This document shows positions 9,096-29,409 of a stretch of 47,818 nt of DNA, piece by piece. The stretch comes from Verrucomicrobiales bacterium. Lineage in GTDB: Bacteria > Verrucomicrobiota > Verrucomicrobiia > Verrucomicrobiales > DEV007. The notes under the pieces were generated by a model that saw only the letters and a list, made by a program, of their open reading frames with translations, did not search any database and was not told the DNA's origin. Each line of letters opens with the position of its first letter. Position 1 is the stretch's first letter. A program made the translations under genes and the position numbers. The stretch is from positions 1-47,818 of the forward strand of contig JAAZZC010000119.1 of assembly GCA_014239335.1 (NCBI GenBank), written 5' to 3'.

Positions 9096-11222
9096 CTGTG
9101 TGTTCAATGTGGACCACAATATACTGCGAGCTGCCATAGCGCCGGAGATTGAAGCCTCATCTCTGAGTAGACTCTTTTCATCTATACTAGGACGCCTGGA
9201 AAAGACAGTCAGATAAATAATATCAATAAGTTCGTCAGAATCCTGTGCAGAATTCATTCTTTGAGAAATCACTGAGTTAGGATTTATTAAAAATTTTAAG
9301 AAATCTCCATTCATCAATGACAGTGCTTGAGTCGTAGATGCCTTATAATTAGCATTTTCAATTAATGACCTATCGGACTGTCCAAAGTCACGTAAGAAAT
9401 GACCATCAGGTGCCGGACTTGAAATTTCAGAGGCTCTAACATATCCACGAAACATTCTATCTCTCTTGTCAATACGTGTCTTCTTTCCATTTTTTTGTGC
9501 ATTGCCAATTTGAGTTTTCATCTTTGCACTTGCCGTTTGCTTATAAATATTTGGATATTTTTTACTGGGGAATGCTTTCTTTAATTCCGCAACGAGTGCT
9601 CTGGGAGTATTTCTAAAAGGAGTTCTAAAGTAACCCTTGAAATCAGAAGGGTCCCAGAAAGTAAGCCTAGCATATTCGGCAGTAGCTTTTTCATTAAAGT
9701 TTAAAATTTTTCTGGCTAGCGGCAGCGCCTTGCTCTCTTTTTTCTCAGAGATAACTTCCTTAACTTGTAGACGAAATTGATCCATCTTTTTCTGTGTCTC
9801 CTTGTTGAAAGAAGCGACCTCTTTAGTCCTTTTAATGAGAGCCTCTGGGGTCTGTTCATTTAACTTTTCCCATGCCTTGAGCCGAGAGTTATAAGAGATC
9901 TCATTAGAGACTCCATCAATATCTGATCTAATCATGGACACGACGGAATCCCATATTTGCTCGGCACTCATTCTTTGAAGTCTAGGACCTTGAAAGTGAA
10001 ACCCCTCCCCTGAGTTCAGTTCAAATGATTGAGATTCCCTGCTAAATGCATCAGTATTGTATAGGACGGCATTGAATTTTCTCATGTCATATTCCAAATC
10101 GACCACCAATTCCTCTAGATAAGCCATTAATTGAGCATCAAAAGGCTCCGTAGAATCATCTATTTTATCAACAGGTTCATACAATCCCACTCCAAACACT
10201 TTTTTCCACATCCTGTTAACAATAGTCTTAGTGAATCTGGGATTCTCTGGAGAGGTCATCCAATCAGCGTATGCTTCTACTCTGCTATGACCGTTCTTTA
10301 CTTTAATACTTTTGCCAAAAGGCGTTGCCGGAAATATCACTTCATTAGGTTTTGCATCATCATATTGATAGTCATCAGGGAGTTTGAGTGGAGTCTTAGT
10401 TTCCCTGACAATCGAATTACGAAAATTATCTGTTAGCCCCTGGAAAGCTCGCTGAAGTTCCCGCGTCTTATTTTTCCTGATAGCATTGACCTTGCCCTTA
10501 TTGCCACGAGGCACTTTAAGTTCATTCTGTGCAATTTGGATTGCCCTGTCCATTGACTCGGTTCGCCTAACTGATCTTACGGGCGTGCTAAAAGCAGCAA
10601 GCTGGTAATAGTCCATCTGACTCCAATCATCGAATGGGTGATCATGACATTGGGCACATACTAGCTGTGTTCCAAGAAAGACCTGAGCAGTAGTAGCCAA
10701 ATGATCAAGCTCCATACCGCGGTCACGAAGATAAAATCCGACAGCGCCATTCTCATCAATCATCCCCTCCGCCGTAATTAAATCTTTCACAAAATTATCG
10801 TAACTCTTATTCTCACGGATCGACCGCTTAATCCAATTAGCATAAGCAATTCCGTTCGCCGGACTCTGACCTTGCATCCTGGTATTGACTCTCAGTATGT
10901 CCGCCCACCAATTGTACTGGTGACTCACGTATCCTTCTGAACTAATGAGGTTATTAATGAGTTTCGATCTTTTATATTTTTCCTTTGAATTAATAAACCT
11001 AGTGGTCTCGGACGCTGTCGGAATCCGGCCGACTATATTTAAATAGGATCTCCTAACAAAGACTGAATCATTAGCTCTCGGATTCAGAGCAACCTTATTA
11101 TTATTGTGATAGGCGGAAATAAGTGAATCTACCCTCTTCGTATAAATCGATAAATCTTCATTTGCACTAAGAAAAGAAAAGAACCAGAGATTAACTAAGA
11201 GCGTGTAGTAAATTATTTTCAA
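9075..11222 (-). CDS. DUF1549/DUF1553 (PSD1-type) secreted protein
   Basis: A 715-residue exported protein of a family greatly expanded in Planctomycetes and Verrucomicrobia. A signal peptide is visible (IIYYTLLVNLWFFSFLSA). DUF1549 follows (RRSYLNIVGRIPTASE … WWADILRVNTRMQG), with a CAQCHDHPFDDW motif that could hold c-type haem. The C-terminal DUF1553 part contains TKTIVNRMWKKVFGVGLYEP, EELVVDLEYDMRKF and RMSAEQIWDS. The middle is lysine-rich and poorly conserved. The gene starts 23 bases after the stop of the DUF1501 gene upstream, so the two form an operon. The biochemical role of the family is not settled. Extracytoplasmic redox work linked to polysaccharide or organic-matter use is often suggested. 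Its 3' end lies inside an inverted repeat. Confidence 0.85.
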   Translation of the reverse strand: MKIIYYTLLVNLWFFSFLSANEDLSIYTKRVDSLISAYHNNNKVALNPRANDSVFVRRSYLNIVGRIPTASETTRFINSKEKYKRSKLINNLISSEGYVSHQYNWWADILRVNTRMQGQSPANGIAYANWIKRSIRENKSYDNFVKDLITAEGMIDENGAVGFYLRDRGMELDHLATTAQVFLGTQLVCAQCHDHPFDDWSQMDYYQLAAFSTPVRSVRRTESMDRAIQIAQNELKVPRGNKGKVNAIRKNKTRELQRAFQGLTDNFRNSIVRETKTPLKLPDDYQYDDAKPNEVIFPATPFGKSIKVKNGHSRVEAYADWMTSPENPRFTKTIVNRMWKKVFGVGLYEPVDKIDDSTEPFDAQLMAYLEELVVDLEYDMRKFNAVLYNTDAFSRESQSFELNSGEGFHFQGPRLQRMSAEQIWDSVVSMIRSDIDGVSNEISYNSRLKAWEKLNEQTPEALIKRTKEVASFNKETQKKMDQFRLQVKEVISEKKESKALPLARKILNFNEKATAEYARLTFWDPSDFKGYFRTPFRNTPRALVAELKKAFPSKKYPNIYKQTASAKMKTQIGNAQKNGKKTRIDKRDRMFRGYVRASEISSPAPDGHFLRDFGQSDRSLIENANYKASTTQALSLMNGDFLKFLINPNSVISQRMNSAQDSDELIDIIYLTVFSRRPSIDEKSLLRDEASISGAMAARSILWSTLNTQQFLFIQ

Positions 11223-11245
11223 AAGAGCGGACTTCTAATTGAACA

Positions 11246-12544
11246 TTATGAGAACAGCTGCATGACAGGATCACCATGGTTTGCCACGGTGAATGGACGA
11301 GCATTTTTCGTGAATAGTCGCTGATCTAGAGGTAATCCACATCCATAAGCAATCGTTGCGTTAAAATCAGCTATTGTAACAGGGTCGTCCACAGGCTCAG
11401 CACCTTTGTCATCAGTTTTACCATGTATGTATCCACCTTTAACACCCCCACCAGCGAGAAGCGCTGAGAAGGCTTTAGGATAATGGTCCCGACCTGCGTT
11501 CTGGTTTATTTTTGGAGTTCTTCCAAACTCAGTAGTGAGAACAACAAGTGTTTCCTGAAGCATACCACTGGTATGAAGATCATCCAACAAAGCACTGAGT
11601 GCCTGATCAAGTATGGCCGTATTTGATTGGACTCTCTGGAAATTATCTTGGTGAGTATCCCAACCTCCAAGCTGAACTTCAACGGATCGCACCCCAGATT
11701 CACTCAAGCGGCGAGCCAAAAGACACCCTTGTCCAAAAGCATGATCACCATAACGTTCTCTGAGCGGTTGGCTTTCCTGAGATATATCAAAAACCTTAAG
11801 ATCAGAACTTTTCATGAGGGTAACAGCTTCTTCATATATGGCAGTATATGCATTGGCATTCTTATCCTTATACTTGGCATGGAATTTTTGATCGATGCTC
11901 TCAGAGAGTTTCCGTCTCCGCATGAAATCAGTTTCAGAAATTCCTGTGAAATGCTTACTGTTCTGAAGTCCCGCCTCTGGTTTCCCGATGATTAACGGCT
12001 GACAATTGATTCCAAAAAAACCAGCACCAGCCTCTTTACTGCCACTGGCAATCGATACAAATCCAGGCAACTGTTGATTTATTCTATCCTCATATTTTAA
12101 TAACCATGCCCCCATATGAGGATGTTGAACTGTTCCTCGTTTCGCATAATTAGTCTTCATGAGGTAACGAGCCTGCTCATGAGCACCTGTTTTTGAATGC
12201 AATGAATTCACAACCGCAACCTTATCCATGTGCTTTGCAATGTTCGGCAAGTACTCACTGACTCGCACTCCATCTGCACTCGTTTTAATTGAAGAAAGGT
12301 TACCTTTAATCTCAGATGGCGCTTCTGGCTTCGGGTCAAAAGTATCGAGGTGCGACATTCCTCCAGCCATGTATAGATAAATAACTTTTTTTGCTGGGTT
12401 TTTTCGGAATGGAATTTTCCGATCCTCGCCCCCTGCCGCCATTAAATCTTGAGACAGAAAATTAACACCAAGATAAGCTTTAGCTGCTCCAGCCATGAAA
12501 GCCCTGCGATCTGGTGAATGTGATAGTTCTTGCGAGAAGTTCAT
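11246..12544 (-). CDS. DUF1501 family protein
   Basis: This 432-residue protein belongs to DUF1501, a family distantly related to sulfatases and alkaline phosphatases. Visible motifs are VIYLYMAGGMSHLDTFDPKP near the N-terminus, GCLLARRLSESGVRSVEVQ, GGWDTHQDNF, VLTTEFGRTPKIN and GRDHYPKAFSALLAGGGVKGG. These hold the aspartate and histidine residues usual for metal binding. The start region (SPDRRAFMAGAAKAYLG) contains a twin-arginine-like RRAF motif, so Tat export is likely. It is the first gene of a pair with the DUF1549/DUF1553 gene. The 163 bases upstream are AT-rich with no promoter I could define. Function unknown. Confidence 0.86.
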   Translation of the reverse strand: MNFSQELSHSPDRRAFMAGAAKAYLGVNFLSQDLMAAGGEDRKIPFRKNPAKKVIYLYMAGGMSHLDTFDPKPEAPSEIKGNLSSIKTSADGVRVSEYLPNIAKHMDKVAVVNSLHSKTGAHEQARYLMKTNYAKRGTVQHPHMGAWLLKYEDRINQQLPGFVSIASGSKEAGAGFFGINCQPLIIGKPEAGLQNSKHFTGISETDFMRRRKLSESIDQKFHAKYKDKNANAYTAIYEEAVTLMKSSDLKVFDISQESQPLRERYGDHAFGQGCLLARRLSESGVRSVEVQLGGWDTHQDNFQRVQSNTAILDQALSALLDDLHTSGMLQETLVVLTTEFGRTPKINQNAGRDHYPKAFSALLAGGGVKGGYIHGKTDDKGAEPVDDPVTIADFNATIAYGCGLPLDQRLFTKNARPFTVANHGDPVMQLFS

Positions 12545-12707: not shown

Positions 12708-13808
12708 TTAATAATTCCAATGCTCTAAAGCAAAGCGCCATCGTTCCATTAATTTCTTCTTAATGCTATCTGATAATTGATGCGTATTCTTTTGATATTT
12801 TTTCTGATCTTCAATATATTGCCCAATCTTAACCATTGATTCTTTATTTACTTCGATCCCGAGGCTTCGATAAATATCATTAACGACTGACATCGGATTG
12901 GAATCAAGGTCCTCGAATCGAACTTCATGGTAATCTTGATTGGGAATTTTCTGACGCTCCTTCAAATGGGCTTTCATGACTCTCTCATAGAAAGCAAAAG
13001 TCATTTCCTCATAATTAATAGATGCACTTCGATGCCATGAAAATGATGGCGTCATACGACCCCATAATTTCATCATCGAAGGAAACACTTCATAGGGGTT
13101 GCGAATGATATGAACAAACTTAGCATTCGGAAATATCTCTTTAAGTAAAGTCATCCTGCTTGTGCAGGCAGGATTCTTATAAAGCATAGTCTTTCCATCG
13201 TGAGCATAAGTCATTTTTTTTGTTAAATAAAGATATGCTGATTCAAGTGATTTCCTTTCTTCATCACTCATGCATTCCATTAAAACAGAAGAGTTAAAAT
13301 ACCCTTCAATATTTCTGGGAAAATAAAGGCATTTTAAGAAAGAAACAGACCCCAATGCAGCCAATGCGAATTCCTCTTCTTGAGGAGTATCCGGACCTAT
13401 AGCAACTTTATCCATACCGCGATTCTTTGGCATCATAATTTTCATCAATGCACGAGCAGGCCGTAACTTACCAAGGCAATCCAAAGGCATAAGAGACCTT
13501 GAAAAAGAAATGAAAGCAAATTGATCATCCTGACTCAATAAATTGTGTAAGTGTGTCGTCCCGCTACGCCAATGACCAATTATGAATATTGGTCCATCTT
13601 TGACCTCTTGTAAGTTTATCGCATTCTTATGTTTTATTTTTTCAAGAAATACAGTCGGAACTCGAAAGGTTACAGCCATAAGAGAAAGCAATCTCGATGG
13701 AAGAGAATAGAGAGTATAGGGCCAATTATTGAAGTAGAGTTTCCAAAATTGGATGAACCCACATCCTCCGATCGGATGTAAAAGATCTGGAAATTTTTTC
13801 TTTGCCAT
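12708..13808 (-). CDS. Sulfotransferase family protein coupled to the PKS-NRPS
   Basis: A 366-residue PAPS-dependent sulfotransferase of the bacterial Sulfotransferase_3 type. The 5'-phosphosulfate loop is PIFIIGHWRSGTTHLHNLL at about residues 70-88, and the 3'-phosphate site is FVHIIRNPYEVFPSMMKLW. A conserved late stretch VRFEDLDSNP is also present. Its ATG lies 3 bases after the stop of the PKS-NRPS gene, so the two are probably translationally coupled. That spacing is the best argument that it tailors the synthase product, by putting sulfate on a hydroxyl. It may instead act on a lipid or glycan. There is no thioesterase or decarboxylase domain next to it, so the CurM-type terminal-alkene mechanism is not supported. 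Confidence 0.85.
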   Translation of the reverse strand: MAKKKFPDLLHPIGGCGFIQFWKLYFNNWPYTLYSLPSRLLSLMAVTFRVPTVFLEKIKHKNAINLQEVKDGPIFIIGHWRSGTTHLHNLLSQDDQFAFISFSRSLMPLDCLGKLRPARALMKIMMPKNRGMDKVAIGPDTPQEEEFALAALGSVSFLKCLYFPRNIEGYFNSSVLMECMSDEERKSLESAYLYLTKKMTYAHDGKTMLYKNPACTSRMTLLKEIFPNAKFVHIIRNPYEVFPSMMKLWGRMTPSFSWHRSASINYEEMTFAFYERVMKAHLKERQKIPNQDYHEVRFEDLDSNPMSVVNDIYRSLGIEVNKESMVKIGQYIEDQKKYQKNTHQLSDSIKKKLMERWRFALEHWNY

Positions 13809-13811
13809 AAG

Positions 13812-16800
13812 CTAACCATTTATGTTGGTTGACTCAGAACTGGACTGCCCTCGAAATTTCTGAACCGCTTCATCAGTAACAAAATAACTCTGCATTTGCA
13901 AACGAGCTGCACCAAGGCCCAAATCATTAATGAATTCATAATGAGATAACGCTTCAGTTCCGGTGAATTCACCCAGAGTAACACCCACTCCGGAATCCAT
14001 TTCAGTGAAAATACTAGCCAAAATACAACCGGTCATTTCTCTGGAATCTCTTACTATAATAGATTGTAGTTTTTCAGGATTAATAATTTCAAGCATCTCT
14101 TCAGCAACTCTTGGAAGATAAATAACCTCTTCAATTTGTTGCCCCAATCGCAATTGGCCTCCTGAAGTAAATATTAAGTCCCCATCCCTTTCTGCCCTCT
14201 TTGCCGCATCAATGAGACTGAATGAACTAGGAAATGAATAATCTACAATCATGGTCCCCGGTCGAACCTTTTCAATATTAATTATATTAGGAACATTTGA
14301 AGCCGCTATTATCAGCTCGCTTTCATAAACTTTATCAGGGAGTTCACTACGACAAGAGCATATATCAATTTCTCCAACAAAGCCACTCGCCAAGAGTCTA
14401 TCCTGCAATTCTTCGAGTCGATCTTCTTGTCGATAAATATCTGACATAATAATACCACGAGGATGCGGCAAAACATCCAATAACAGGCCAAGGGTCCCCT
14501 TTCCAATTGATCCAAGACCAATAAAAGACACCTTAAGGTCAGACATATCACGCCCCGAATTGGCAAGGATACCTTCTACAGATTTCACGATTGTTGCGCA
14601 CCGCGTTGCATTACCTGTAGTAATGATTGGTAAGTTCACCTCTTCGTCATTTTCCCTCATCCAATTAATCACATCCAATCCATCATTAGTCACTAAAGGA
14701 AGCACCCCTGTAAGTGATGCTTTCCGCGCGCCTAGTTTTGCAGATAAACGCAATCCATCCATAATAATTGATCTTATTGGATTAGAATCATCATACAGAT
14801 CAACTTCAAAAATCGGCAACATTATAAGACCTATAGTCCCCCACTGGGTCCTATATAAATTAGTTAATCGAGCCTTATTTCCAAACCATTTATTGAGTAA
14901 TTCGGATTTGCCTAAACCTGTCACTTCAATAAACGATTGAGGTATGTAAGAAAGAGCAACTGCATCAATATTTGGCAAAGAGTCTAGTTTATCATTGTCA
15001 GTGAATTGGAAAGAAAGGTATTCGGTATCAACTTCTTCCCCACTAATTAATGGCTCAGAAACATTCTCCATAGATGCAGGCGAATCTACAAATCCTGCGA
15101 ACTTTTCAATAGTTGGATATCTGAAAAAAGCCTCTAAAGGGATATTCTTTTCCAGAGCATTCGAAACTCTAGTGACAATTTTAACTGCCATTAAAGAATC
15201 CCCTCCCATGTCAAAAAAATTATACTTGATGCTTACCTTAGGAATATCAAAAGCATCAGAAAATATCTCAGCAAGTTTAGTCTCGGTAATGGTTGATGGG
15301 GAAATGAAATTATGCTCCAATTCCATCATACTGTATTCAGGAGATGGAAGTGCTTTCCGGTCAATTTTCTGGTTAGGTGTCAGAGGCAACGCTTCCAGAT
15401 TAACAAAATATGCAGGCACCATCGCATTCGGCAATCGATCACGCAAATGCTCCTTAATACCAGTTAATAACTCATTTGTCAGTTCAGATTCTATAACAAA
15501 ATAAGCCACAAGAGCTTCTCCACTTGGCAGATCATCACGCTTGATAACCACTGCAGAACTAACTGCCTCATAACTCATTATCGCAAATTCAATCTCACCA
15601 AGCTCAATACGAAAGCCCCTCAGTTTAGTCTGAAAATCAATTCGCCCTAAACATTCCAATGTCCCATCAGGACGCCATCTACCCAAGTCGCCGGTTTTAT
15701 AAAGTCTTTGATGGCCCTGACCAGGAATATCAACTTCAATGAAGGATTCATCCGTTAATTCTTCTTTCCCTCGATAACCTCTGGCAAGACCTGCTCCACC
15801 TATGCAAATCTCCCCAACAAAGGATATCGGTTGAATATTATTGTTATCACCAAGTATATAAATCTTTGTATTGGATATGGGTTTCCCAATACTCAATTTC
15901 TCTTCACTTGAGAGAACTTTAGTACAAGTAGACCAGACCGTTGTCTCTGTCGGCCCATATAGGTTCCATACTTCATCAGCGCTATTAACAAGAAAATCGG
16001 CAAGGTCTCTAGGCATCGATTCACCACCACATAAAATCTTGAGTCCGTTACGCCCTTCCCACCCACTCTCCATGAGAATTCTCCAAGTAGTCGGAGTCGC
16101 CTGCATAATTGTTACTGCATGATCGTTGAGCAATCTCGAAATCCGTCTCCCATCTCTAGCATCCTCTTTAGTCGCAACAACAACCTGAGCCCCTGTAATT
16201 AGCGGTAAAAAAATCTCAAGTATTGAAATATCAAAAGAAAGAGTCGTTAGGGCCAAGAGCCGATCCAATCTAGTAATTCCTGGATTTTGCCGCATTGACG
16301 TCAAAAAATTAACTGCTGCAGAATGGGAGATTTCGACGCCTTTCGGTTCACCAGTCGATCCTGAAGTATATATAACGTAGGCTAAGTTATCAGCATTAAA
16401 TAGAGGACGATCGGGTAACTCTATAATATCAGCACATTCCTCTACTCTAAAAATACCAGTGAAATCCGGAGGCGCTAAATGATGCGTACCTTCCGTGACA
16501 AAGAGTAATGAAGAACCCGAATCCTTCAACATTTTCTGAATCCTATGACAAGGATAGTCAGGGTCAATCGGGACATAATGCGCACCAGACTTCAGAACCC
16601 CCAACATCGCGGCAATCATCAGAGCATTTCTTTCAACAATCAGAGCAACAGAGTCATCTGGCCCAATATTCTGATCTATCAGAGTTCCTGCCACATTATT
16701 AGCTAATCTTTCAAGTTCCTGATAAGTGACTTTTTGTTCTCCAAAACGAACAGCAACTGTGCTCGGTGTTTTTAATGCCTGCTCTTCAACGAGATGATGA

Positions 16801-19800
16801 ATGCCTTTATCTTTCGGATAATCAGCATCGGTTGAATTCCATGAAGAAATGATCAGTTCCGACTCTTCTTTACCCAACAATTCTATCTCAGAAATCCTAA
16901 TATCTGGATCCCGGGTTATATGTTCCAGTAAAAGGGAAAAAGTTTCACTTAGCTTTTGAATCGTTTCTGGCTTAAAAAGATCTCGATTGTATTGCCAGCA
17001 ACCGAAAATTTGACCTCCGCTCTCCTCAACTACAAGAGTAATTTCAAATTGTGCCTGACGTAAATTAAGATCAATGGTTTCAACCGTCATGTCGCCAACC
17101 GAGAATTGATGTCCTCCCTTCCCGATCAGGAAAACAGCAATGCCCTGCTCGTCAATGCCAGGCACACGCTCCATGGCAAATGAGACTTGAAAAAGCGGTG
17201 ATCTTGCCGGATCACGCGGCATTTTTAAATCATTAATAATCCGAGAGAATGGGTAATCCTGATGTTCAATGGCTCCATTCACGGATGCTGATGTTTGATT
17301 CAAAAATTCAATGAAACTAGGGTCATCATGCGTACTACTACGCAAAGGAACCATATTCACAAAATATCCAAGCATATCACCGATCTCCTTTTGATTTCGT
17401 CCCGCCATCGGACTTCCAATCACAATATCATCCTGATCACAATAACGATGAAATAAAGCATTGTAGGCAGTAAGCATCGTCGAATAAAGTGTCGTGCTTT
17501 GGCTTTGCGCTAACTCTAGAACCTTTGAAGCTAAGTTATCCTCAAGGATGAAACTGAGTCTTCCTCCGTTAAATGTTTGAACGGCAGGACGAGGGTAGTC
17601 AGTTGGAAGGTCAAGAGAACCAGACACACCGCTAAGTGATGAACCCCAATACTCAGATGCTCGTATTTTGTATGGGCCTGCAAGATTATGCTGTTGCCAA
17701 TTAACGTAATCCTGATAGCTGTATTCGATCGGATTAAGATCAAGATTTTTCCCCGACTTAATCGAAAAATAACTTTCGATTAAGTCGTTCATTAACAAAG
17801 AAACGGACCATGCATCAGAAATGATGTGGTGCATTGCCAGTAAAACGAAATGTGAACCTTGATCATTCCGAAAAAGTTCCAACCTGATCACGGGACCTTT
17901 TTCTAAATCGAAAGGCAATTCGGCATGTTCTTCAATGAGTTCTTTGATTTGCTCCTCATTCATACTAGATGCATCATGTTCCCGAAAATCGATCGTCTTC
18001 TTAGGTTCAACTCGTTGAATAAGCTCTCCATTGACTTGATGAAAAGTTGCACTCAGCATCGGATGACGTTCAAAGAGAGCCCTGAAAGCAGATTCCATTG
18101 CTTCAATATCAACAAGAGGAGTAAGCTTAGAACTAAATACCAAATTATATGCGGCACTTTCCGGTGAAAGCTGATACAAAAACCACAAAGCTTTCTGTCC
18201 CTCAGAGAGGGGAAATTCCATCGATTCTTCGCCCGCTCTTTCGAATGAAGCTATATCACTTGATGACAGATTTCCAGCCGAGGATATCTCAGAAGCATTT
18301 TCATCTACGGCAAGAATTTGCTCTAGAAGGCTAGCCGCTAGCTCCTTTATGTTCGGACCATTCAGAACACTCCCCATCGGTAGATTAATTCCAAGCTCAG
18401 ACTCCATTCTATTCATTAGCTCAATTGCCATAAGGGAGTCTAATCCAATATTGGTAAGCGCTGTGTCACGGTCAATTTTTGCAACTTTAGTACCAAATAC
18501 ACTCGCTACTTGGTCAGTAATAAAATCTTCGAGTATTTTCAGTCTTTCTTCACCTTGAGCAGCCAAGACCTTGGGACGAACAGATCCTCCCGATCCTCGC
18601 ACCGATAGTCTCTGGACTACTTTACTATATAATGGAGCAGTTGAAAGCGCAGGGCTCAACTTAACCAGTTGAGCCCAATCAACTACAGAGGCAACGACCT
18701 GAGCATTCGACTTTGGAAGAAAAAGTGATATCACGTGCTGAGTATCCAACATCCTATATGGCTTCATCCCGAGTTTGTTTAGATAAGTCGCAGTTTTCTG
18801 GTTACGCTCAACAAATCCAGCCTCAATCAATGCTCCCCAGTTAATTGTTAATGCCGAAAGGCCTCTGGAATGACGATAGTGCGACAAGGCATCTAAAAAT
18901 GCATTTCCTGCATTATAATTGGCCTGCTTAACTGCACCAATGACCGTCGAGAAAGAAGAAAATTGGATGAAATGGTCTAAATCAATATTCTGAGTCGCCC
19001 GATGTAAATTCCAGGCCCCTAACATCTTTGGGTAAAGAACCTTATTAAAACATTCCTCATTCATATCAATCATGAACTGGTCATCAATGACCATTGCCCC
19101 ATGAATTATGCCTTTTAAAGGTGGAAGCTCAGAACCTATTTTGACCATGATCTTTTCCACTTCTTGGAGCGAAGTCACGTCAGCTCTGAAGTCTACAATC
19201 TCTTTTCCTTCGGATCTTAAATACTCAATATCTTTAATAATAGATGCATCTCGAGCGCCGCTCCGGCTAACGAGGATCAGGTGATAGGCTCCGTTGCGAA
19301 GCATCCATTTTGCCAGTTCGAAACCGAACCCACTCATGCCTCCAGTGATCAGATAGGTTGCATCCGATTTGAATAAGTGACCTTCCTCAGTGCATGGAGC
19401 AATAGGAATCGAATCGCAATCAAAGCTAAGTACATTCTTACCAATGTGCTTCCCTTGGGCCATGTAACGAAATGCTTCTGCCGCTTCTGTTATAGGAAAA
19501 ACAGTATGGTCTAAGGGAGAATATTCGCCAGAATCAAAGCTCTTCGCTAATTTAGCAAATATTTCTGCAACATAATCCGGCCTATCTTGTAAATGTTGTG
19601 CAAGATCAACAACGAAATAAGAAATATTGTTACGGAGTTGCTGGAGCCCAATCTTTGAATCGTTATAAACATCTATTTTACCAATTTCAATAAAGCGACC
19701 GAAAGGACTCAATACTGAAAATGACTTTGAAATAAAATCGCCGGCCAGCGAATTAAGAACACAATCAACACCTTCACCATCTGTGATATTCATGATCTCA

Positions 19801-20471
19801 TCAGCAAAAGATAGCGTCCGTGAATTCATTACATGGTGAGCTCCAAGTTTGAGAAGCAGATCACGCTTTTCAGGAGTTCCAGCAGTTGCGAAAATTTCTA
19901 GTCCTAATCCACGAGCAATTTGAATTGCAGCCATTCCCACTCCGCCCGTACCAGCATGAATAAGAACACTTTCTTTTTTTCTCATCCTCGCTAGTTCATG
20001 CAAACTGTAATAAGCAGTCAAAAAGACAGTCGGCAATGTCGCCGCTTGTTCAAAAGTCATTGAATTAGATTTTTTAAAAATCATCTTTTCACTGACCGTG
20101 ACAAATGAACGAAAACAATAAGGAGCCATGCCGACGACCTCATCACCAATCGCAAAATCTTTAACTTTTTTTCCCACACTGACAACGGTTCCTGAGAAAT
20201 CATCGCCAAACCATTTCAAATCAATCGGATTGCCTGGATACATTCCCAGAGCCTTCATCACATCTCGAAAATTAATCCCTCCCGCCTTAATTTGAACTTC
20301 AACTTGATCTGGATCAGGCGAGCATCTGATCGTCTCATTGAGAGACAAATTAGTCAGTACTCCAGGTGAACTAATCTCTAACTTGAAAGGAATTATCGAC
20401 TCCTCTGACAAGACAGCTTCGGCTAAACGGTCAGATTGCTTTTCAGCTTTAAGAGGGTATAACCGATTCAC
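13812..20471 (-). CDS. PKS-NRPS hybrid, C-terminal half: ER-KR-ACP-C-A(Gly)-PCP-acyl-ACP-reductase-like
   Basis: 2219 residues from a GTG start. Domains: enoyl reductase 30-350 (VLIHAGTGGVGMAAIQIA); ketoreductase 365-560 (Tyr519 in QANYNAGNAFLDAL, IDD at 462-464 as in B-type KRs); ACP with Ser679 (GLDSL); condensation 752-1190 (HHIISDAWS, 881-889); adenylation 1225-1710 (YTSGSTGEPKG, Lys1702); PCP with Ser1759 (GGDSL); and a reductase-like domain 1820-2205. The A-domain pocket is D1414, I1415, L1418, Q1457, L1480, G1482, L1504, V1512, W1513, K1702, matching the glycine code with Val for Ile. The last domain has TTGNATRCAT, VSFIGLGSIGKG and Cys2149 in REMTGCILASIF, resembling fatty acyl-ACP reductase. 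The start lies seven codons after the stop of the preceding gene, in the same frame, in the middle of a linker that is continuous in related synthases. The chain is probably released reductively. No phosphopantetheinyl transferase is in the window. Confidence 0.9.
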   Translation of the reverse strand: MNRLYPLKAEKQSDRLAEAVLSEESIIPFKLEISSPGVLTNLSLNETIRCSPDPDQVEVQIKAGGINFRDVMKALGMYPGNPIDLKWFGDDFSGTVVSVGKKVKDFAIGDEVVGMAPYCFRSFVTVSEKMIFKKSNSMTFEQAATLPTVFLTAYYSLHELARMRKKESVLIHAGTGGVGMAAIQIARGLGLEIFATAGTPEKRDLLLKLGAHHVMNSRTLSFADEIMNITDGEGVDCVLNSLAGDFISKSFSVLSPFGRFIEIGKIDVYNDSKIGLQQLRNNISYFVVDLAQHLQDRPDYVAEIFAKLAKSFDSGEYSPLDHTVFPITEAAEAFRYMAQGKHIGKNVLSFDCDSIPIAPCTEEGHLFKSDATYLITGGMSGFGFELAKWMLRNGAYHLILVSRSGARDASIIKDIEYLRSEGKEIVDFRADVTSLQEVEKIMVKIGSELPPLKGIIHGAMVIDDQFMIDMNEECFNKVLYPKMLGAWNLHRATQNIDLDHFIQFSSFSTVIGAVKQANYNAGNAFLDALSHYRHSRGLSALTINWGALIEAGFVERNQKTATYLNKLGMKPYRMLDTQHVISLFLPKSNAQVVASVVDWAQLVKLSPALSTAPLYSKVVQRLSVRGSGGSVRPKVLAAQGEERLKILEDFITDQVASVFGTKVAKIDRDTALTNIGLDSLMAIELMNRMESELGINLPMGSVLNGPNIKELAASLLEQILAVDENASEISSAGNLSSSDIASFERAGEESMEFPLSEGQKALWFLYQLSPESAAYNLVFSSKLTPLVDIEAMESAFRALFERHPMLSATFHQVNGELIQRVEPKKTIDFREHDASSMNEEQIKELIEEHAELPFDLEKGPVIRLELFRNDQGSHFVLLAMHHIISDAWSVSLLMNDLIESYFSIKSGKNLDLNPIEYSYQDYVNWQQHNLAGPYKIRASEYWGSSLSGVSGSLDLPTDYPRPAVQTFNGGRLSFILEDNLASKVLELAQSQSTTLYSTMLTAYNALFHRYCDQDDIVIGSPMAGRNQKEIGDMLGYFVNMVPLRSSTHDDPSFIEFLNQTSASVNGAIEHQDYPFSRIINDLKMPRDPARSPLFQVSFAMERVPGIDEQGIAVFLIGKGGHQFSVGDMTVETIDLNLRQAQFEITLVVEESGGQIFGCWQYNRDLFKPETIQKLSETFSLLLEHITRDPDIRISEIELLGKEESELIISSWNSTDADYPKDKGIHHLVEEQALKTPSTVAVRFGEQKVTYQELERLANNVAGTLIDQNIGPDDSVALIVERNALMIAAMLGVLKSGAHYVPIDPDYPCHRIQKMLKDSGSSLLFVTEGTHHLAPPDFTGIFRVEECADIIELPDRPLFNADNLAYVIYTSGSTGEPKGVEISHSAAVNFLTSMRQNPGITRLDRLLALTTLSFDISILEIFLPLITGAQVVVATKEDARDGRRISRLLNDHAVTIMQATPTTWRILMESGWEGRNGLKILCGGESMPRDLADFLVNSADEVWNLYGPTETTVWSTCTKVLSSEEKLSIGKPISNTKIYILGDNNNIQPISFVGEICIGGAGLARGYRGKEELTDESFIEVDIPGQGHQRLYKTGDLGRWRPDGTLECLGRIDFQTKLRGFRIELGEIEFAIMSYEAVSSAVVIKRDDLPSGEALVAYFVIESELTNELLTGIKEHLRDRLPNAMVPAYFVNLEALPLTPNQKIDRKALPSPEYSMMELEHNFISPSTITETKLAEIFSDAFDIPKVSIKYNFFDMGGDSLMAVKIVTRVSNALEKNIPLEAFFRYPTIEKFAGFVDSPASMENVSEPLISGEEVDTEYLSFQFTDNDKLDSLPNIDAVALSYIPQSFIEVTGLGKSELLNKWFGNKARLTNLYRTQWGTIGLIMLPIFEVDLYDDSNPIRSIIMDGLRLSAKLGARKASLTGVLPLVTNDGLDVINWMRENDEEVNLPIITTGNATRCATIVKSVEGILANSGRDMSDLKVSFIGLGSIGKGTLGLLLDVLPHPRGIIMSDIYRQEDRLEELQDRLLASGFVGEIDICSCRSELPDKVYESELIIAASNVPNIINIEKVRPGTMIVDYSFPSSFSLIDAAKRAERDGDLIFTSGGQLRLGQQIEEVIYLPRVAEEMLEIINPEKLQSIIVRDSREMTGCILASIFTEMDSGVGVTLGEFTGTEALSHYEFINDLGLGAARLQMQSYFVTDEAVQKFRGQSSSESTNING

Positions 20472-20492
20472 ATATCTGACACCATCCCTTTA
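20472..20492 (-). other. In-frame TAA and short linker separating the two synthase genes
   Basis: On the minus strand the PKS frame runs …GAA ATT GCT TAA AGG GAT GGT GTC AGA TAT and continues into the GTG start of the next gene. No frame change is needed. Translated through the stop it reads ENEIA-*-RDGVRYVNRL. Highly reducing PKSs normally have an unbroken EIALRxGxRYVxRL-like linker here, between the pseudo-KR and ER domains. One base (TTA Leu to TAA) would explain the interruption. AGGG lies 14 bases before the GTG, a poor distance for a ribosome binding site. Confidence 0.85.
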
Positions 20493-23400
20493 AGCAATTT
20501 CATTTTCTTGGTCAGATAGAAGGAATTCTTCAAAAATATCATATGATTCAGATCCGCGACTTTGTTCATCTAAATCAATATGTTTCCAATGAAAATCAGG
20601 ATACTCACCTCTAGCTACACGAATGATACCCACTACAGGGGACATTGCGATCCCATTAAGCATATCACCTCCTTTAACGTGCACAGTGCCTCGGGTTAAG
20701 ATCAAAACTTTCGGGTTTAACTCGAAGTCTTTAGACGATAATGTTTTGACGAGCTCTAGCAAATGCATAGATCCAGTTCTCTGAGCACCTATTAAATCAG
20801 CTTCTGAAGAACTCCCATCTAATGGCCCTGCCTCAATACCAAATGCATGAACAATTGCATCCACTTGAGGCATGTTAGCAATTACCGTACCTATTTCCTG
20901 ATCAGGTAATAACCTAACAACTTGATTGGATTCATCTTTAAAGCGTTCAGACAATTCTTTAAAGAAAGAATCATCCTCAGAGAAAATAATTACGGCCCCT
21001 TTGTTGTTTAAATCTCCAAGATCCCCCAAGCCGTTCTCTTCTTTGTTGAGATCACCCTCTTCAATTAGTGATGAAGAGCCCCTATGAGCCATGAAGGCAG
21101 TCTGACCAGACTCATCTGGGTCAGGTGTATTGACAAATGATACTACGCCCTCGTATCCACAACTTAATAATAAATCTTTCCACTCTGGACAATTCAATAA
21201 TGCCGAATTGGGCCTCAGATCAGTGTCAGTATATTGCCACCAACCTTTCAACAATCCGAAAATAAGATCCAATGCACTACGAGAACGAGTTACTTCCAGA
21301 AAAATGAGCAAGCCATCATCTGCCAGGCAGCACTTTAATTGTTCGAGAGTATTTTTAAGATCAGAAGTGGCATGAATTACATTAGTTGCTAGAACCAAAT
21401 CAAAAGATTCAGGAACAATTCCCTGATCTGATGGAGATTTCTCTATATCAAAAAGACAAAATTCAACTGACGCATTATTAGTAAATGCCTTCTTCGCCTC
21501 AGCAATGAAGGCCTGACCAGTATCAGAAAAGGTATAATCGAATTTATTGGGAGATAATTTTTCAAGAACGCTCCGGGTCAATGATCCTGTCCCAGCTCCA
21601 ACTTCAAGAATTCTGACTGCACGGTCCTCCGAAACGCCCTCTATGGCTTTTTGGACAGCAGCTGAAATCATCTCGTTATTTGCAGGAAAATCAGCTCCAT
21701 TAACATAAAAAGATTCCAGCACTTCAGAGGATCCTTTTGGGAAAAGAACCTCAAGAGAATAAGCCTCTCCTGAAAGCACTTCAGTGAGCCTAGGCCAAAC
21801 TAGTTGATAAAGATCAAGATCCGCTCCTTGGCTCGGGTACTTCATCCTAAGATGATCCAATTCCTGCGTTACATCAATACCGCGGACTTCACGTATTATT
21901 CTCCATTCCCCTTGACCTAATTCTTCTAAGGGTCCCTCAACTGATAAAGCCTTCAGTTGAGCCATGACTAAGCGTTCATGTTCGAGAGAAATACCTAACT
22001 CTTCTATAATCTTGCTCGTTGTATAAATAGAGCCACAATCAGGATTCCAGCCTAGCTGCATTAATGAACTCTCAAAACAGTGGCGTGCCAAGCTGTCAAC
22101 TTCTTGAATGAAATCCTTATAGTAAATTGCTAGATCATACCTTTCATACCTTTCATTTTTTCCAGCATTAACTTCCTCCAGAATCTGGTCAAAATTTGAA
22201 AATGCTATTTTCCCTTCCACTCGACTGCCCCTTAGCCGCTTAGGTTCCCAAGAAAATTCATAGAAAGAATTATTAATTGATTCTATTTCTTCATCTTTCT
22301 GATCAATTCTTTCAACACAAAAACCCAAAACATCGGCAACTCTTTGTCCTTCCCCGTTCATAACAATAATGTCAGCTATGACACTTTCACCATCATCAAA
22401 TGTGACTGTGGCATGTGCCCACAACTTATCTGGAAGAGAATCCTTATACAGGTGCACTCTGCGAATAGAAGAAGGCAGGTAAAAATTCTGACTAGGCCTT
22501 GATCCTTCTGGGATAACTTGTGCCCCTTTGAGTGCATGAAAACATGCATCGAGAACGGCAGGATGAAAATGATAATTTGAAAGTGTATTGACTATTGCGG
22601 GGGGGACTTGAATCTCTGCAACGGATTCATTGGGCTTACTCCAAACATTAAGGAGCTGACGAAAGTTGGGACCAAACTGATAACCTGCCTTATCATATTC
22701 TTTATAATAATCCTCATGAGTGGAATGCTTTTCCATACGGGATTGGATAGAATTAAGAGATTCATCACAGGAATCTGGTTCTGGATTTGCCCGTCGAATT
22801 AATCCCTGAGCATTAAGTTCCCAAGTCTTACTCTCATCAGTGGAAGAATATACACGAAATGACTTTTGCGATTCAGTATATGCTACACGAACAGTAGGAA
22901 CATTCTTATCTGAAATAAAGAGCGCCTTCTGTGTCTTTATTGATTCAACAGCATAAGACTCTTCGGGGAACAAGTTTCTGGCAACTGCAAGACCTATCTC
23001 TGCATAGCCTGCTGCTGGGAAAATAATACTATCCCAAAAACAATGGTCTTGGAGATAATCGTGCTCTCTTGGGTCAAGGCGAAACTCCCAACAAGTCTCG
23101 GGGGATCTCTGTCTTAACCCAAGTAGAGGATGATCCATAGCTTGTAGCCGATGCCTGAAGGATTCGTCACATTCAATCCAGAATCTTTCATGATTCCACG
23201 CATGCCTTGGAACATTCACTACTTTACCCGACCCCTGATTAATAGCAGCCCAATCAACTTGTACTCCCTCTATATGAAGTCTCGCTAAATTCTCAAGAAT
23301 AGCTTCCAATTCTCTTTCTTTGCGCCTCAGAGAACAAAGGACTGAACATTTTTTCCCGAGGGCTCCGACGGAATCAGCAATTGGAGCAGCAAGTGCAGGA

Positions 23401-25835
23401 TGAGGACCTAATTCAAGAAATAGCTCAGAACCATCATTGGATAATGACTCAATGGCTGAGGAGAACAGAACGGGTTCCCTGACATTTCGCCACCAATAAT
23501 TATTATCTAAATCGCCACCCTCGAAGAGTTCGCCAGTAACAGTTGAGTAAAATGGAATTTCGGAACTCTTTGCAGAAATTGTCTCTAACGCATTAATTAG
23601 ATCATCTTTAATAGGATCCATTTGATGAGTATGGAACGCGTAATCAATACGAAGCCACCGCACAAAGGCCCCTTCCTTTTCAATACTTTTAACAATGCCT
23701 TTCAATGCCTGAGTGTCTCCTGCAAGGGTGACCATTGTAGGCCCATTGATAACAGCTACCTGAACCTCATCTTCTTGACCTTTGATTACCCTTTCCGCCT
23801 CAGCTCTGGAAAGTCCCACAACTGCCATCTTACCCTTTCCGCCTGTCTTATTTTGCAAATGACTCCGATGAAAAATAACCTTAATAGCATCTTCAAGACT
23901 GTATACTCCTGCAACGTATGCTGCAGCAACCTCACCAACGCTATGCCCAACAACTTTCTTAGGCAAGACTCCCCATGTTTTCCACAATTCGGCAAGAGCA
24001 ACTTGCAGAGCAAAAATAGCAGGCTGCGCAATATCTGTCCGATCGATCCTTGATAACTCTTCATTAGAATTCATTTCTTCGACCAAGGACCACCCAGTCA
24101 ACGGCTCTAATATGGAATTAATTTTTTCTATTGTTCCTCGAAAGACAGGCTCATTCCGGAAAAGTTCTTGCCCCATACCCCACCACTGTGCTCCCTGCCC
24201 AGTAAATACAAATACTGGATCAGCATTAGTAACAGAACGTTTGCCAATAATACATCCTGGAGATTCTATATGATTTAAAATCCATGATTTTAAAGTCGAT
24301 CTTATTGATCCATTATCATCACCAATGACAACCATTCTCTCATCAAGGCTCTGAAGATTTAACCCGACCGAAGTGCAAACTTCACTAATATGATCAGTAT
24401 CGTTTTTAAGAAATTCGCAGTACGATTTAGCTGCACACTCAAGACCCGCTTCACTGTTTCCACTGACTGGCAACAAAAATGGGCGGCCAATCAAGTTTCG
24501 ATAAGATTCGTCACTTATTAGGCAAGGTTCATTTTTTACTGACTCAAGAACAACATGGGCATTGGTTCCGCCAAACCCAAAAGAATTCACAGCGCTAACA
24601 GGAAGAAAATCGCCCATTGATGGCATGGGCATATTTTCCCGAGGAACCCTTAACTTCAACTCTTTGAAGGGAATGTTAGGGTTGGGCGTTTCGTAATTAA
24701 GGTTTTTAGGAATTCGCCGATTATGCAAAACTAATGCTGCCTTTATCAGGCCCGCAATCCCAGATCCAGATTCCAAATGACCTATATTGGATTTTACAGA
24801 TCCTATGATGCACTGTTCAGATTCTGATCTTCCCTCACAAAGAACTTCTCCAAGAGCCCGCGTCTCAATGGGATCACCAACAGGCGTGCCCGTGCCATGA
24901 GCCTCCATGTAACCTACTCTGCTAGGGTCAATACCGGCTTGTTGGTAAGCCTGACGCAACATAGCCGCTTGTGAATCTCTACCAGGAACAGTCATCGAAG
25001 ATGTATTACCGTCCTGATTTACTACCGTAGCCTTGATCGTAGCATATATACGATCGCCGTCCCTATGCGCGCGAGCAAGAGGCTTAATAAGAATCATTCC
25101 TGCACCTTCACCTCTCACATATCCGTTAGCTCGGGCATCAAAAGCAAAACATTGACCACTCGGCGACAGCATCGACGCTTTGGAAAAACCAATTGAACTA
25201 TCAGGCATCAACAATGCATTAACTCCACCAGCAAACGCAGCATCACATTCCCCACTCCAAATACTCTTACAAGCAAGATTAACCGCTACGAGAGCAGATG
25301 AACATGCCGTATCAATAGAGATGGAGGGTCCTTTTAAATCATAAAGATAACTGATACGGTTCGAAGCGATTGATAGTGTGCTGCCAGAATTTGTATGAAC
25401 ATCAATGTCTGACTCCCCCATCATTTGGATCGATCCATACTCATTAGATGATATACCTACATAGACACCAGTGGCTGAACCTCTCCAATTAACAGGCTTT
25501 TCCCCCGCATCTTCGAAGGCTTCCCATGTTAGCTCAAGCAACCAGCGTTGTTGCGGATCCATGCGCTGAGCTTCTCTGGGGGAAATGCCAAAAAAAGATG
25601 CGTCAAATTTGTCCACATCGTCAACGAAACCTCCCCACTTAGTTATCATCTTGATAGGGATTGAACTATCAGGATGATAGTAACGGTCTGCATTCCATCG
25701 ATCATCGGGAACTTCCCGAATTCCCGATTTTCCTTCTATGAGAAGATCCCAGAACAAATCCGGGCTATTAGCTCTCCCCGGAAACCGGCATCCTATTCCA
25801 ACTATCGCGAGAGGCTCTTGCTTTGATTCTGGCAT
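20490..25835 (-). CDS. Highly reducing type I PKS, N-terminal half: KS-AT-DH-C-methyltransferase-pseudoKR
   Basis: 1781 residues. Ketosynthase 1-430 has all three active-site residues (Cys178 in DTACSSAL, His313 in EAHGTGT, His353 in NIGHLE). Acyltransferase 540-850 has GHSVGE (Ser632) and YAFH at 732-735, a mixed form between the malonyl HAFH and methylmalonyl YASH signatures. Dehydratase 900-1190 has His931 in DHCFWDSIIFP, where the usual HxxxG glycine is Asp, and Asp1096 in LDACFHAL. The SAM methyltransferase (about 1300-1560) carries ILEVGAGTGSLT near 1410. A pseudo-KR structural region follows from about 1600. The ORF stops at TAA within the pseudo-KR/ER linker, and the next ORF resumes in the same frame. 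It carries no ACP, ER or active KR, so it must work with the next gene. The 164 bases upstream are AT-rich and probably hold a promoter, which I could not define. Confidence 0.92.
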   Translation of the reverse strand: MPESKQEPLAIVGIGCRFPGRANSPDLFWDLLIEGKSGIREVPDDRWNADRYYHPDSSIPIKMITKWGGFVDDVDKFDASFFGISPREAQRMDPQQRWLLELTWEAFEDAGEKPVNWRGSATGVYVGISSNEYGSIQMMGESDIDVHTNSGSTLSIASNRISYLYDLKGPSISIDTACSSALVAVNLACKSIWSGECDAAFAGGVNALLMPDSSIGFSKASMLSPSGQCFAFDARANGYVRGEGAGMILIKPLARAHRDGDRIYATIKATVVNQDGNTSSMTVPGRDSQAAMLRQAYQQAGIDPSRVGYMEAHGTGTPVGDPIETRALGEVLCEGRSESEQCIIGSVKSNIGHLESGSGIAGLIKAALVLHNRRIPKNLNYETPNPNIPFKELKLRVPRENMPMPSMGDFLPVSAVNSFGFGGTNAHVVLESVKNEPCLISDESYRNLIGRPFLLPVSGNSEAGLECAAKSYCEFLKNDTDHISEVCTSVGLNLQSLDERMVVIGDDNGSIRSTLKSWILNHIESPGCIIGKRSVTNADPVFVFTGQGAQWWGMGQELFRNEPVFRGTIEKINSILEPLTGWSLVEEMNSNEELSRIDRTDIAQPAIFALQVALAELWKTWGVLPKKVVGHSVGEVAAAYVAGVYSLEDAIKVIFHRSHLQNKTGGKGKMAVVGLSRAEAERVIKGQEDEVQVAVINGPTMVTLAGDTQALKGIVKSIEKEGAFVRWLRIDYAFHTHQMDPIKDDLINALETISAKSSEIPFYSTVTGELFEGGDLDNNYWWRNVREPVLFSSAIESLSNDGSELFLELGPHPALAAPIADSVGALGKKCSVLCSLRRKERELEAILENLARLHIEGVQVDWAAINQGSGKVVNVPRHAWNHERFWIECDESFRHRLQAMDHPLLGLRQRSPETCWEFRLDPREHDYLQDHCFWDSIIFPAAGYAEIGLAVARNLFPEESYAVESIKTQKALFISDKNVPTVRVAYTESQKSFRVYSSTDESKTWELNAQGLIRRANPEPDSCDESLNSIQSRMEKHSTHEDYYKEYDKAGYQFGPNFRQLLNVWSKPNESVAEIQVPPAIVNTLSNYHFHPAVLDACFHALKGAQVIPEGSRPSQNFYLPSSIRRVHLYKDSLPDKLWAHATVTFDDGESVIADIIVMNGEGQRVADVLGFCVERIDQKDEEIESINNSFYEFSWEPKRLRGSRVEGKIAFSNFDQILEEVNAGKNERYERYDLAIYYKDFIQEVDSLARHCFESSLMQLGWNPDCGSIYTTSKIIEELGISLEHERLVMAQLKALSVEGPLEELGQGEWRIIREVRGIDVTQELDHLRMKYPSQGADLDLYQLVWPRLTEVLSGEAYSLEVLFPKGSSEVLESFYVNGADFPANNEMISAAVQKAIEGVSEDRAVRILEVGAGTGSLTRSVLEKLSPNKFDYTFSDTGQAFIAEAKKAFTNNASVEFCLFDIEKSPSDQGIVPESFDLVLATNVIHATSDLKNTLEQLKCCLADDGLLIFLEVTRSRSALDLIFGLLKGWWQYTDTDLRPNSALLNCPEWKDLLLSCGYEGVVSFVNTPDPDESGQTAFMAHRGSSSLIEEGDLNKEENGLGDLGDLNNKGAVIIFSEDDSFFKELSERFKDESNQVVRLLPDQEIGTVIANMPQVDAIVHAFGIEAGPLDGSSSEADLIGAQRTGSMHLLELVKTLSSKDFELNPKVLILTRGTVHVKGGDMLNGIAMSPVVGIIRVARGEYPDFHWKHIDLDEQSRGSESYDIFEEFLLSDQENEIA

Positions 25836-25999: not shown

Positions 26000-26767
26000 T
26001 TAAAATCCAATCGAAGCTCCACCGTCAACCGTTAGAAGAGAACCTGTTACAAAGCTCGCTGCTGGCGAACAAAGAAAAACCGCAGCATGACCAACCTCGT
26101 CAGGTTGACCCATTCTGCCCATCGGCGTTCTACCAAGAACTTTCTGCCTCCTAGGCTCGTCTCCTTTAAATGAATTTAATGCCATTGCGGATTCAATCCA
26201 ACCAGGCAAAATTGCATTCACTCTGACTCCATTCGGAGCAAATTCAGCTGATAAATTATATACTGCTCCATGCATAGCAGACTTCGCCATTGAATATGAA
26301 GTGACAAGTGGCAACCCTATCACAGTTGCCATAGAGGAAATCCACAAAATCGAACCAGATTGATTGTCGAGCATTGCAGGAACAAATTCTTTCGTAATGG
26401 CAAGGGCCCCTCGTATATGGACATCAAAAACCTCCATGAATTCTGAATCCTGTAAGTCAACGAATGGCTTCTTGCAGTTAATTCCAGCATTATGCACCAG
26501 ACAAGTCGGCTTCCCATGATCAGAAAGGACCTTTTGAGCAAAGTCTGGAATCTCATCAATCCGCGCGATATCTTGAGAAAGATAACTGACCCGTTCACCA
26601 AGTTCAGCAGCGGCTTCGGTCAGCACCGTTTCACGCCTTCCGACAAGAATCACTCTTTCGGCCCCTGCAGCAAGCATGCATCTTCCAATACCTAGACCAA
26701 TGCCTGTTCCTCCACCTGTTATCAAAACTGTTTCTCCGGACATGCTGTAAGGATTTTCCATACTCAT
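26000..26767 (-). CDS. SDR family oxidoreductase
   Basis: A classical short-chain dehydrogenase/reductase of 255 residues. It has the cofactor loop TGGGTGIGLGIG, an NAG motif in VHNAGINCKKPF, catalytic Ser in ILWISSMATVIG, and YSMAKSAMHG (YxxxK). The C-terminal FVTGSLLTVDGGASIGF is usual for the glucose/gluconate dehydrogenase-like group. It lies 30 bases downstream of the enolase-superfamily dehydratase gene, so the pair probably acts in one sugar-acid pathway such as oxidation or reduction of a keto sugar acid. It sits 164 bases upstream of the PKS start on the same strand. A role in modifying the polyketide is possible but less likely than sugar metabolism. An in-frame ATG two codons downstream is an equally good start. 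Confidence 0.85.
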   Translation of the reverse strand: MSMENPYSMSGETVLITGGGTGIGLGIGRCMLAAGAERVILVGRRETVLTEAAAELGERVSYLSQDIARIDEIPDFAQKVLSDHGKPTCLVHNAGINCKKPFVDLQDSEFMEVFDVHIRGALAITKEFVPAMLDNQSGSILWISSMATVIGLPLVTSYSMAKSAMHGAVYNLSAEFAPNGVRVNAILPGWIESAMALNSFKGDEPRRQKVLGRTPMGRMGQPDEVGHAAVFLCSPAASFVTGSLLTVDGGASIGF

Positions 26768-26797: not shown

Positions 26798-27916
26798 TTA
26801 GGAAACCTTTTTTCCATACTTGCTCATAGCTTCTTCGGTCAGAGTGGTGCCTGCTCCTGAGTTTTTAGGGAAATCAAAATAACCTGACCTAATCTCAAGA
26901 GGTTCAATAAAGCAGTCCTTGATCCAAGGTATAAATTCCAACAACTCAATTCCTGGATGGGCAATACTAAGATGAATTTGAGTTTGAGCCATATCACCTG
27001 CATGAGGTGTTACGGGGAGGTTTGCTTCGTAAGCAACATTAGATACTTCTATGGTCTCAGTAATCCCTCCAAGCCGAGTTGCATCAGGTTGAACATAATG
27101 AACTGCCTTAGAGAAAATAAATTCCTCAAAGTGAGCCAACGAGTATAACATTTCACCCAAGGCAACCGGCGTCTCTATAGCATCTGAAAGAGCTTTGTGC
27201 CCACGCACATCATCATGCCATAGGGGCTCCTCTATCCAAGTAACGTTATAATCTTTCAACTTACTCGCCACACCCAATGCCTCAGGCATGCGCCAACGAC
27301 CATTCGCATCAGTCATTATACGAACCTCTGAACCAACTGCATTTCTGACCGCTTCGACTCGTTGCAAATCCTCATTATGATCCGGCTTACCCAATTTCAT
27401 CTTTATACTTTTGTAACCATCCACTTCAGTGAGTCTTAGCACATCATCTATCAACATTTGAGTTGAAAGGTTCAACCAACCACCGTCTGTATTGTACGCT
27501 TCGACTTTATCCTTCTCGGTTCCGCCGAGAGTCTTCCATAATGGTTCATTTGAGGCCTTTGATTTAATATCCCACAGAGCAATATCCACAGCTGCCAAGG
27601 CCATCTTTGTAATACCTGCCCGTCCAACCCATTGGAGTGGCGGATGATATGCCAATCTTTCCCACAATAAGGAAATATCAGACACTTCCTGACCTATTAA
27701 TAACTCAGCATAACAATTGGATATGCAGTCCGTAATTAATCTATCACTGGCTAAATGGGCATGCGTTCCGGTAAATCCATAACCAGTGAATCCTGTATCA
27801 GTAAAAATTTTTACTCCGGGCATGCCCCAATGAGTAATCGAATGCGTACTGTCAGATATATGGTTTCGAGTAACCGGAACATGCAAAATAAATGTTTCAA
27901 GCGAAGTTATAATCAT
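26798..27916 (-). CDS. Mandelate racemase/enolase-superfamily sugar-acid dehydratase
   Basis: 372 residues in the enolase superfamily. Visible are the KxK motif (IKMKLGKPDHNEDL), metal ligands in MTDANGRW, WIEEPLW and ALGEML, and the late QPDATRLGG and TPHAGDMAQ holding the Asp/His pair. This set fits acid-sugar dehydratases of the mandelate racemase subgroup. These abstract the proton alpha to a carboxylate and lose water. I cannot name the exact substrate (fuconate, rhamnonate and galactonate are candidates). The frame could extend one codon to a TTG, but the ATG at 27916 is the better start. It is followed by the SDR after 30 bases. The DUF1501 gene upstream ends 67 bases before it. Confidence 0.82.
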   Translation of the reverse strand: MIITSLETFILHVPVTRNHISDSTHSITHWGMPGVKIFTDTGFTGYGFTGTHAHLASDRLITDCISNCYAELLIGQEVSDISLLWERLAYHPPLQWVGRAGITKMALAAVDIALWDIKSKASNEPLWKTLGGTEKDKVEAYNTDGGWLNLSTQMLIDDVLRLTEVDGYKSIKMKLGKPDHNEDLQRVEAVRNAVGSEVRIMTDANGRWRMPEALGVASKLKDYNVTWIEEPLWHDDVRGHKALSDAIETPVALGEMLYSLAHFEEFIFSKAVHYVQPDATRLGGITETIEVSNVAYEANLPVTPHAGDMAQTQIHLSIAHPGIELLEFIPWIKDCFIEPLEIRSGYFDFPKNSGAGTTLTEEAMSKYGKKVS

Positions 27917-29390: not shown

Positions 29391-29409
29391 TATCAGTCAC
29401 CGTTTTGGA

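Follow-up and report, generated by a model that had tools for sequence, protein, structure and literature searches.

Locus organization and domain content

The 47,818-nucleotide stretch analyzed here (the window) is the entire contig C42 of a Verrucomicrobiales metagenome-assembled genome that is 59% complete. It carries, on the minus strand, a hybrid polyketide synthase-nonribosomal peptide synthetase (PKS-NRPS) gene followed by a sulfotransferase gene. The taxonomic placement of the source agrees with its named relatives, so that an earlier note, made from the letters alone, was right to assign the locus to a bacterium of the Planctomycetes-Verrucomicrobia-Chlamydiae group. Pfam searches and orthologue alignment gave, in the window and in its relatives, the order KS-AT-DH-cMT-psiKR-ER-KR-ACP-C-A(Gly)-PCP followed by a C-terminal NAD-type domain. 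Pfam recognized the KS, AT, DH and methyltransferase domains in open reading frame (ORF) 20490-25835, which also includes the psiKR, and the ER, KR, ACP, condensation, adenylation and PCP domains in ORF 13812-20471, which encodes a 2,219-aa protein; E-values reached 1e-111. The synthase thus has one PKS module with a full reductive set and one ACP, as the note had proposed. The note's domain order also stood from KS to PCP, but the terminal "reductase" did not, as this region has no Pfam match and is of the terminal amidation domain (TAD)/acyl-ACP reductase (AAR) type. The span 12708-25835 also includes a separate sulfotransferase gene, which the note had omitted. Table 1 lists the features.

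Table 1. Features of the synthase and sulfotransferase genes in the window
Feature	Position	Strand	Evidence
KS domain	24540..25817	-	PF00109/PF02801; DTACSS Cys and both His in every orthologue covering the site
AT domain, predicted to be specific for malonyl-CoA (GHSVGE, YAFH)	23259..24215	-	PF00698 4e-82; motifs conserved
DH domain, catalytic His and Asp present	22296..23132	-	PF21089/PF14765; orthologue alignment
C-methyltransferase (cMT), S-adenosylmethionine (SAM) motif ILEVGAGTGSLT, His of catalytic type within NVIHAT; borders approximate	21156..21848	-	PF08242 1e-14; aligns with LovB MT region
psiKR (structural KR half)	20493..21083	-	Position and similarity to MAS/FAS-type modules
In-frame stop, psiKR/ER boundary	20490..20492	-	Same frame as downstream ORF; sense codon in 17 orthologues
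ER domain, NADPH motif GTGGVG	19425..20381	-	PF00107/PF13602; orthologue alignment
KR domain, catalytic Ser and Tyr present	18828..19361	-	PF08659 7e-59; orthologue alignment
ACP, GLDSL	18333..18524	-	PF00550; orthologue alignment
Condensation domain, HHIISDAW motif (HHxxxD)	16851..18218	-	PF00668 3e-111
Adenylation domain, code DILQLGLVWK, predicted glycine	15366..16787	-	PF00501/PF13193; motif columns of alignment
PCP, GGDSL	15087..15299	-	PF00550, second stretch; orthologue alignment
Terminal release domain, TAD/AAR type; invariant Cys codon 14025-14027; NAD-type Asp	13815..15059	-	PDB 9e4s match, fold, residue comparison
3'-phosphoadenosine 5'-phosphosulfate (PAPS)-type sulfotransferase, 3 bp downstream of synthase	12708..13808	-	PF13469 2e-36

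The catalytic sites were checked on an alignment with 17 orthologues, a few of which are cut at contig ends and lack the C-terminal sites. Catalytic residues were retained in all synthase domains (up to 17 orthologues per site), and no active site was found to be damaged, so the loss of catalytic residues that the note had named as a refutation was not observed. The adenylation domain code, with positions mapped by hand from the alignment, reads DILQ(L/F)GLVW plus the usual Lys across the orthologues. We take DILQLGLVW(K) to be a glycine code, and the domain is therefore predicted to activate glycine, in line with the glycine loading that had been suggested. The condensation domain of the synthase is the only one found in the source genome. 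A phosphopantetheinyl transferase was not found in this genome, a result attributable to its incompleteness since the enzyme is present in 16 of 16 relatives.

The PKS and NRPS halves lie in one frame (~4,007 codons) and are separated by one stop codon and 18 bp. Orthologues with 50-90% identity consist of one ORF of ~4,000 codons on every contig of sufficient length, and in 17 of 17 aligned orthologues a sense codon replaces the stop, which occurs in the window copy only. The notion that the PKS and NRPS are naturally separate genes is therefore rejected; the natural form is one protein of ~4,000 residues. The break in the window may have arisen very recently, may be an error in the sequence, or may be a split between domains that is tolerated. 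That the copy is a recent pseudogene, making nothing in the source organism, is suggested by the stop itself, given the sense codons of the 17 orthologues. Nevertheless, we regard this as rather unlikely. No further lesion was seen in the 12 kb of the window gene, its balance of nonsynonymous to synonymous changes equals that of the closest complete relative, G295 (142/399 versus 101/284), the stop falls between two domains and is followed after 18 bp by a GTG start, and a sequencing error is possible in a 59%-complete assembly.

Ketosynthase placement and use of the PKS module

The relationships of the KS were analyzed using a maximum likelihood tree of 38 rows, with references taken from plasmids, PDB alignments and Verrucomicrobiales genomes only. 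The synthase KS fell in a group (support 89/95) with stand-alone single-module reducing PKSs, a hybrid resembling those of polycyclic tetramate macrolactam (PTM) pathways, LovB and chain-starting KSQ domains. Forcing it together with CurL-type modular extenders was rejected (approximately unbiased [AU] test, p 0.0015, a value that is somewhat optimistic because the groups were picked after the tree was seen). Given that its neighbours in the tree are single-module and iterative PKSs and not the modular extenders sampled, iterative use of the PKS module is the better reading of the sequence. The placement with single-use modular PKSs by which the note would have been refuted was thus not observed with these references. 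The alternative, a single round of extension on a fatty acyl starter that the host provides, by analogy with hybrids primed by a fatty acyl-AMP ligase (FAAL), would be compatible with the presence of one module and one ACP, and a related TAD-ended hybrid in Streptomyces fungicidicus appears to be FAAL-primed. However, neither a loading module, a ligase (FAAL or CoA ligase), an extra carrier nor a second module was found in the synthase gene or conserved beside it in relatives, and the KS groups with chain-starting and iterative domains to the exclusion of the modular extenders sampled; we consider a single extension unlikely. Taken together, the domains, their residues and the KS tree uphold the description of a fully reducing, C-methylating single-module PKS that is fused to a glycine NRPS module and is probably iterative.

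The earlier note had likened the domain order to that of fungal iterative PKS-NRPSs. Up to the PCP the order is indeed nearly identical to that of enzymes such as PsoA, and the likeness holds as an analogy only: the KS scored higher against bacterial PKSs in the PDB (PikA1, 472 bits; CurL, 446; MAS, 413) than against LovB (350) or PsoA (346), and the release domain is unrelated to the classical NAD_binding_4-type reductase. LovB belongs to the same large KS group but lies on a long unresolved branch. A fungal origin by gene transfer is not supported by the KS scores. Nor is the domain order specifically fungal, because bacterial single-module equivalents exist: the layout occurs without an NRPS in cyanobacteria, Deinococcus, Burkholderiales, Bacteroidota and other Verrucomicrobiales. 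Stand-alone fully reducing PKSs from Planktothrix, Deinococcus QL22, Paraburkholderia and Persicobacter plasmids and from Verrucomicrobiales (2.4-3.0 thousand residues) have KS domains 52-56% identical to that of the synthase and the same single-module layout, some with a cMT, but they lack the fused NRPS module and the TAD. A counterpart of the window synthase in two genes may exist on a plasmid of Deinococcus sp. QL22 (L060:7903-19293), where genes for a phosphopantetheinyl transferase, a fully reducing PKS of the stand-alone kind with a closely related KS, and an NRPS follow one another.

Monomodular PKS-NRPSs of the PTM type (KS-AT-DH-KR-ACP-C-A-PCP-TE), which have been reported from Verrucomicrobia too (PMC10308959), share with the synthase the single gene, the one PKS and one NRPS module and a KS of the iterative class. 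They have neither cMT nor ER and release their product through a TE, whereas the window synthase has both domains and a TAD instead of the TE, and its architecture is consequently not that of the PTM type. In the tree, the PTM-like sequence is a branch of the same larger KS group and not the sister of the synthase. Stand-alone modules of this PKS type and monomodular PKS-NRPSs were already known in bacteria; new are the combination of domains, its near-universal presence in one Verrucomicrobiales family and the link to a sulfotransferase.

The terminal release domain

The ~400 C-terminal residues directly after the terminal PCP have no Pfam match. A classical thioester reductase was rejected, as the 2,219-aa protein showed no match to NAD_binding_4 (the SDR-type, short-chain dehydrogenase/reductase-type, family of such enzymes) and the fold is different. 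The closest relative found was the carmabin TAD (PDB 9e4s; phmmer 4.7e-63, 216 bits, 31% identity), and AAR reached only an E-value of 0.4. NCBIfam models gave weak similarities far below their cut-offs (PigE, 8e-8 and 31 bits against 850; AAR, 0.003 and 17 bits against 450). The structure predicted from 15 orthologues (pLDDT 86.9) has a TM-score of 0.88 to 9e4s, entitled "TAD from Carmabin Biosynthetic Pathway", and of ~0.6 to AAR. Among 71 residues invariant in the family, 47 are common to 9e4s; Cys345, GLGSxG and Asp207 are shared by the two domains, the Asp being typical of NAD and not NADP sites. By its position, the invariant Cys is likely the counterpart of carmabin Cys2238, which the title of entry 9e56 describes as disulfide-linked to dephospho-CoA. 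The predicted domain therefore matches the TAD type in position, fold, Cys and NAD-type dinucleotide site.

The carmabin domain (PDB 9e4s, 9e4u, 9e4x, 9e50, 9e56) and the terminal domains of HcaD and VatR are likewise C-terminal domains of ~400 residues after the last PCP, with the same fold, invariant Cys and NAD-type pocket. Their place is at the end of modular peptide assembly lines of cyanobacteria, in which the terminal residues differ, whereas the window domain follows a glycine module on a single-module PKS. A 2025 structural paper is said to use the label "putative terminal amidation domain". TAD-type domains also end an NRPS in another Verrucomicrobiales family and, on plasmid p1 of S. 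fungicidicus, a FAAL-ACP-KS-AT-KR-ACP-C-A-PCP-C-type hybrid (L040:1363-13140) annotated only as NRPS/type I PKS. In Pantoea stewartii pCN101, a stand-alone "hypothetical" protein (L041:11812-13101) that is 42% identical to the carmabin TAD lies inside an NRPS cluster.

The cyanobacterial pathways of hectoramide, vatiamide and carmabin, which have such a domain, yield products with a terminal primary amide. The domain of the vatiamide and hectoramide assembly lines was described as putatively amidating, with its mechanism unstudied, and the related carmabin domain as likewise putatively amidating (PMC10949194). Since the release domain is closest to this putative amidation domain, a terminal amide is no less likely than an aldehyde, and the reductive release to aminoacetaldehyde is not supported in the form that the note had given it. 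We rate release as an amide an even prospect, release as an aldehyde a lesser but real one, and any other chemistry improbable. Aldehyde release would make the domain a Cys-dependent two-electron thioester reductase that frees an N-acyl-aminoacetaldehyde; this could be reduced to an N-acylethanolamine and O-sulfated, or be cyclised if a beta-keto group were left. The AAR fold with its catalytic Cys keeps this option alive. The reductase domains of PigE and TamH belong to the same superfamily, as does cyanobacterial AAR, and the members of this set are stand-alone or fused to a transaminase; those of PigE and TamH use a matching Cys to convert thioesters to aldehydes (PMC8341465, PMC9594044). 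The resulting alcohol would also provide the sulfotransferase with a hydroxyl, and the window carries an SDR gene upstream of the synthase (26000-26767). Yet the sequence is far nearer to the carmabin TAD than to PigE or AAR. Moreover, the SDR is a neighbour of the synthase in the window genus and G312 but in none of the other genomic contexts, and the lack of a conserved enzyme for aldehyde processing next to the synthase slightly favours the amide. For the same reason of distribution, neither this SDR nor the MR_MLE gene (26798-27919) is favoured as a pathway enzyme.

Sulfotransferase partner and proposed product

The release domain was found in 50 of 74 genomes of the family, and in 34 of the 41 that are well assembled, as a single copy that lies mostly in ORFs of ~4,000 codons. 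Among 386 genomes searched from the order, only one outside the family has it. The sulfotransferase is likewise present in 50 of the 74. Both genes occur in 48 family genomes and neither in 22, with 2 + 2 discordant (Fisher p 2e-14); in well-assembled genomes the counts were 34, 7 and 0, and by genus 11 had both, 6 neither and 1 the sulfotransferase only. Because the counts are uncorrected for common descent and some of the genes counted may be paralogues, the association is less strong than the p-values imply. The sulfotransferase gene stands beside the synthase in the window genus, G312 and G304, and divergently in G311; elsewhere the two are at unlinked loci, and no other conserved gene was found near the unlinked sulfotransferases. 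Concordance across unlinked loci would be hard to explain without a functional tie between the two genes. As the synthase is single-copy and widely present, and no transport, resistance or regulatory genes were seen conserved beside it, a core product of lipid-like nature seems more probable to us than an accessory antibiotic.

In the window, two PSD1/PSCyt2-DUF1501 gene pairs (9075-12544 and 27984-31551) flank the synthase and sulfotransferase. Their DUF1501 copies are ~30% identical to each other and the genus retains this arrangement, which looks as though the cassette had been inserted into a degradation locus of planctomycete/verrucomicrobial type. A 1,568-residue protein with lamin-tail and CotH kinase domains is encoded near the cluster region (38847-43553).

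The best overall explanation, in which we place moderate confidence, is an iterative PKS-NRPS with TAD-type release, more likely as an N-acylglycinamide, and subsequent sulfation. The fully reducing PKS would start its own chain through its AT and iterate, producing a reduced acyl chain that SAM-dependent methylation may have branched. The condensation domain would then join this chain to PCP-bound glycine through an amide bond. These assembly steps rest on intact domains. For the remaining ones, we infer that the acyl-glycyl thioester passes to the Cys of the TAD-type domain, next to NAD(H), and is released, with the primary amide a likelier product than N-acyl-aminoacetaldehyde. Finally, a hydroxyl of the product would be sulfated by the dedicated sulfotransferase, such as a beta-hydroxyl left by the KR in an incompletely reduced cycle. 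Several points weigh against this explanation. Support for the KS clade is moderate and sampling of reference KSs limited; the window's own gene carries a stop, and this copy may be inactive or may work as two polypeptides; the catalytic activity of TADs is putative in the sources, while their better-understood AAR-type cousins PigE and TamH make aldehydes; and the substrate of the sulfotransferase is a presumed one.

With ~50 natural versions of the TAD behind a simple glycine module, the family offers a tractable setting in which to decide between amide and aldehyde formation by these rarely studied domains. A bolder proposal, which we regard as doubtful, is that the near-universal single-copy synthase and the sulfotransferase make a sulfated acyl-glycinamide with a branched chain, and that this compound is a core lipid of the cell envelope, or a signal, and not an occasional secondary metabolite. 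The synthase and sulfotransferase constitute a two-gene pathway, kept by most members of a family of uncultured bacteria, whose product may be a sulfated molecule of lipid-like character not previously described.

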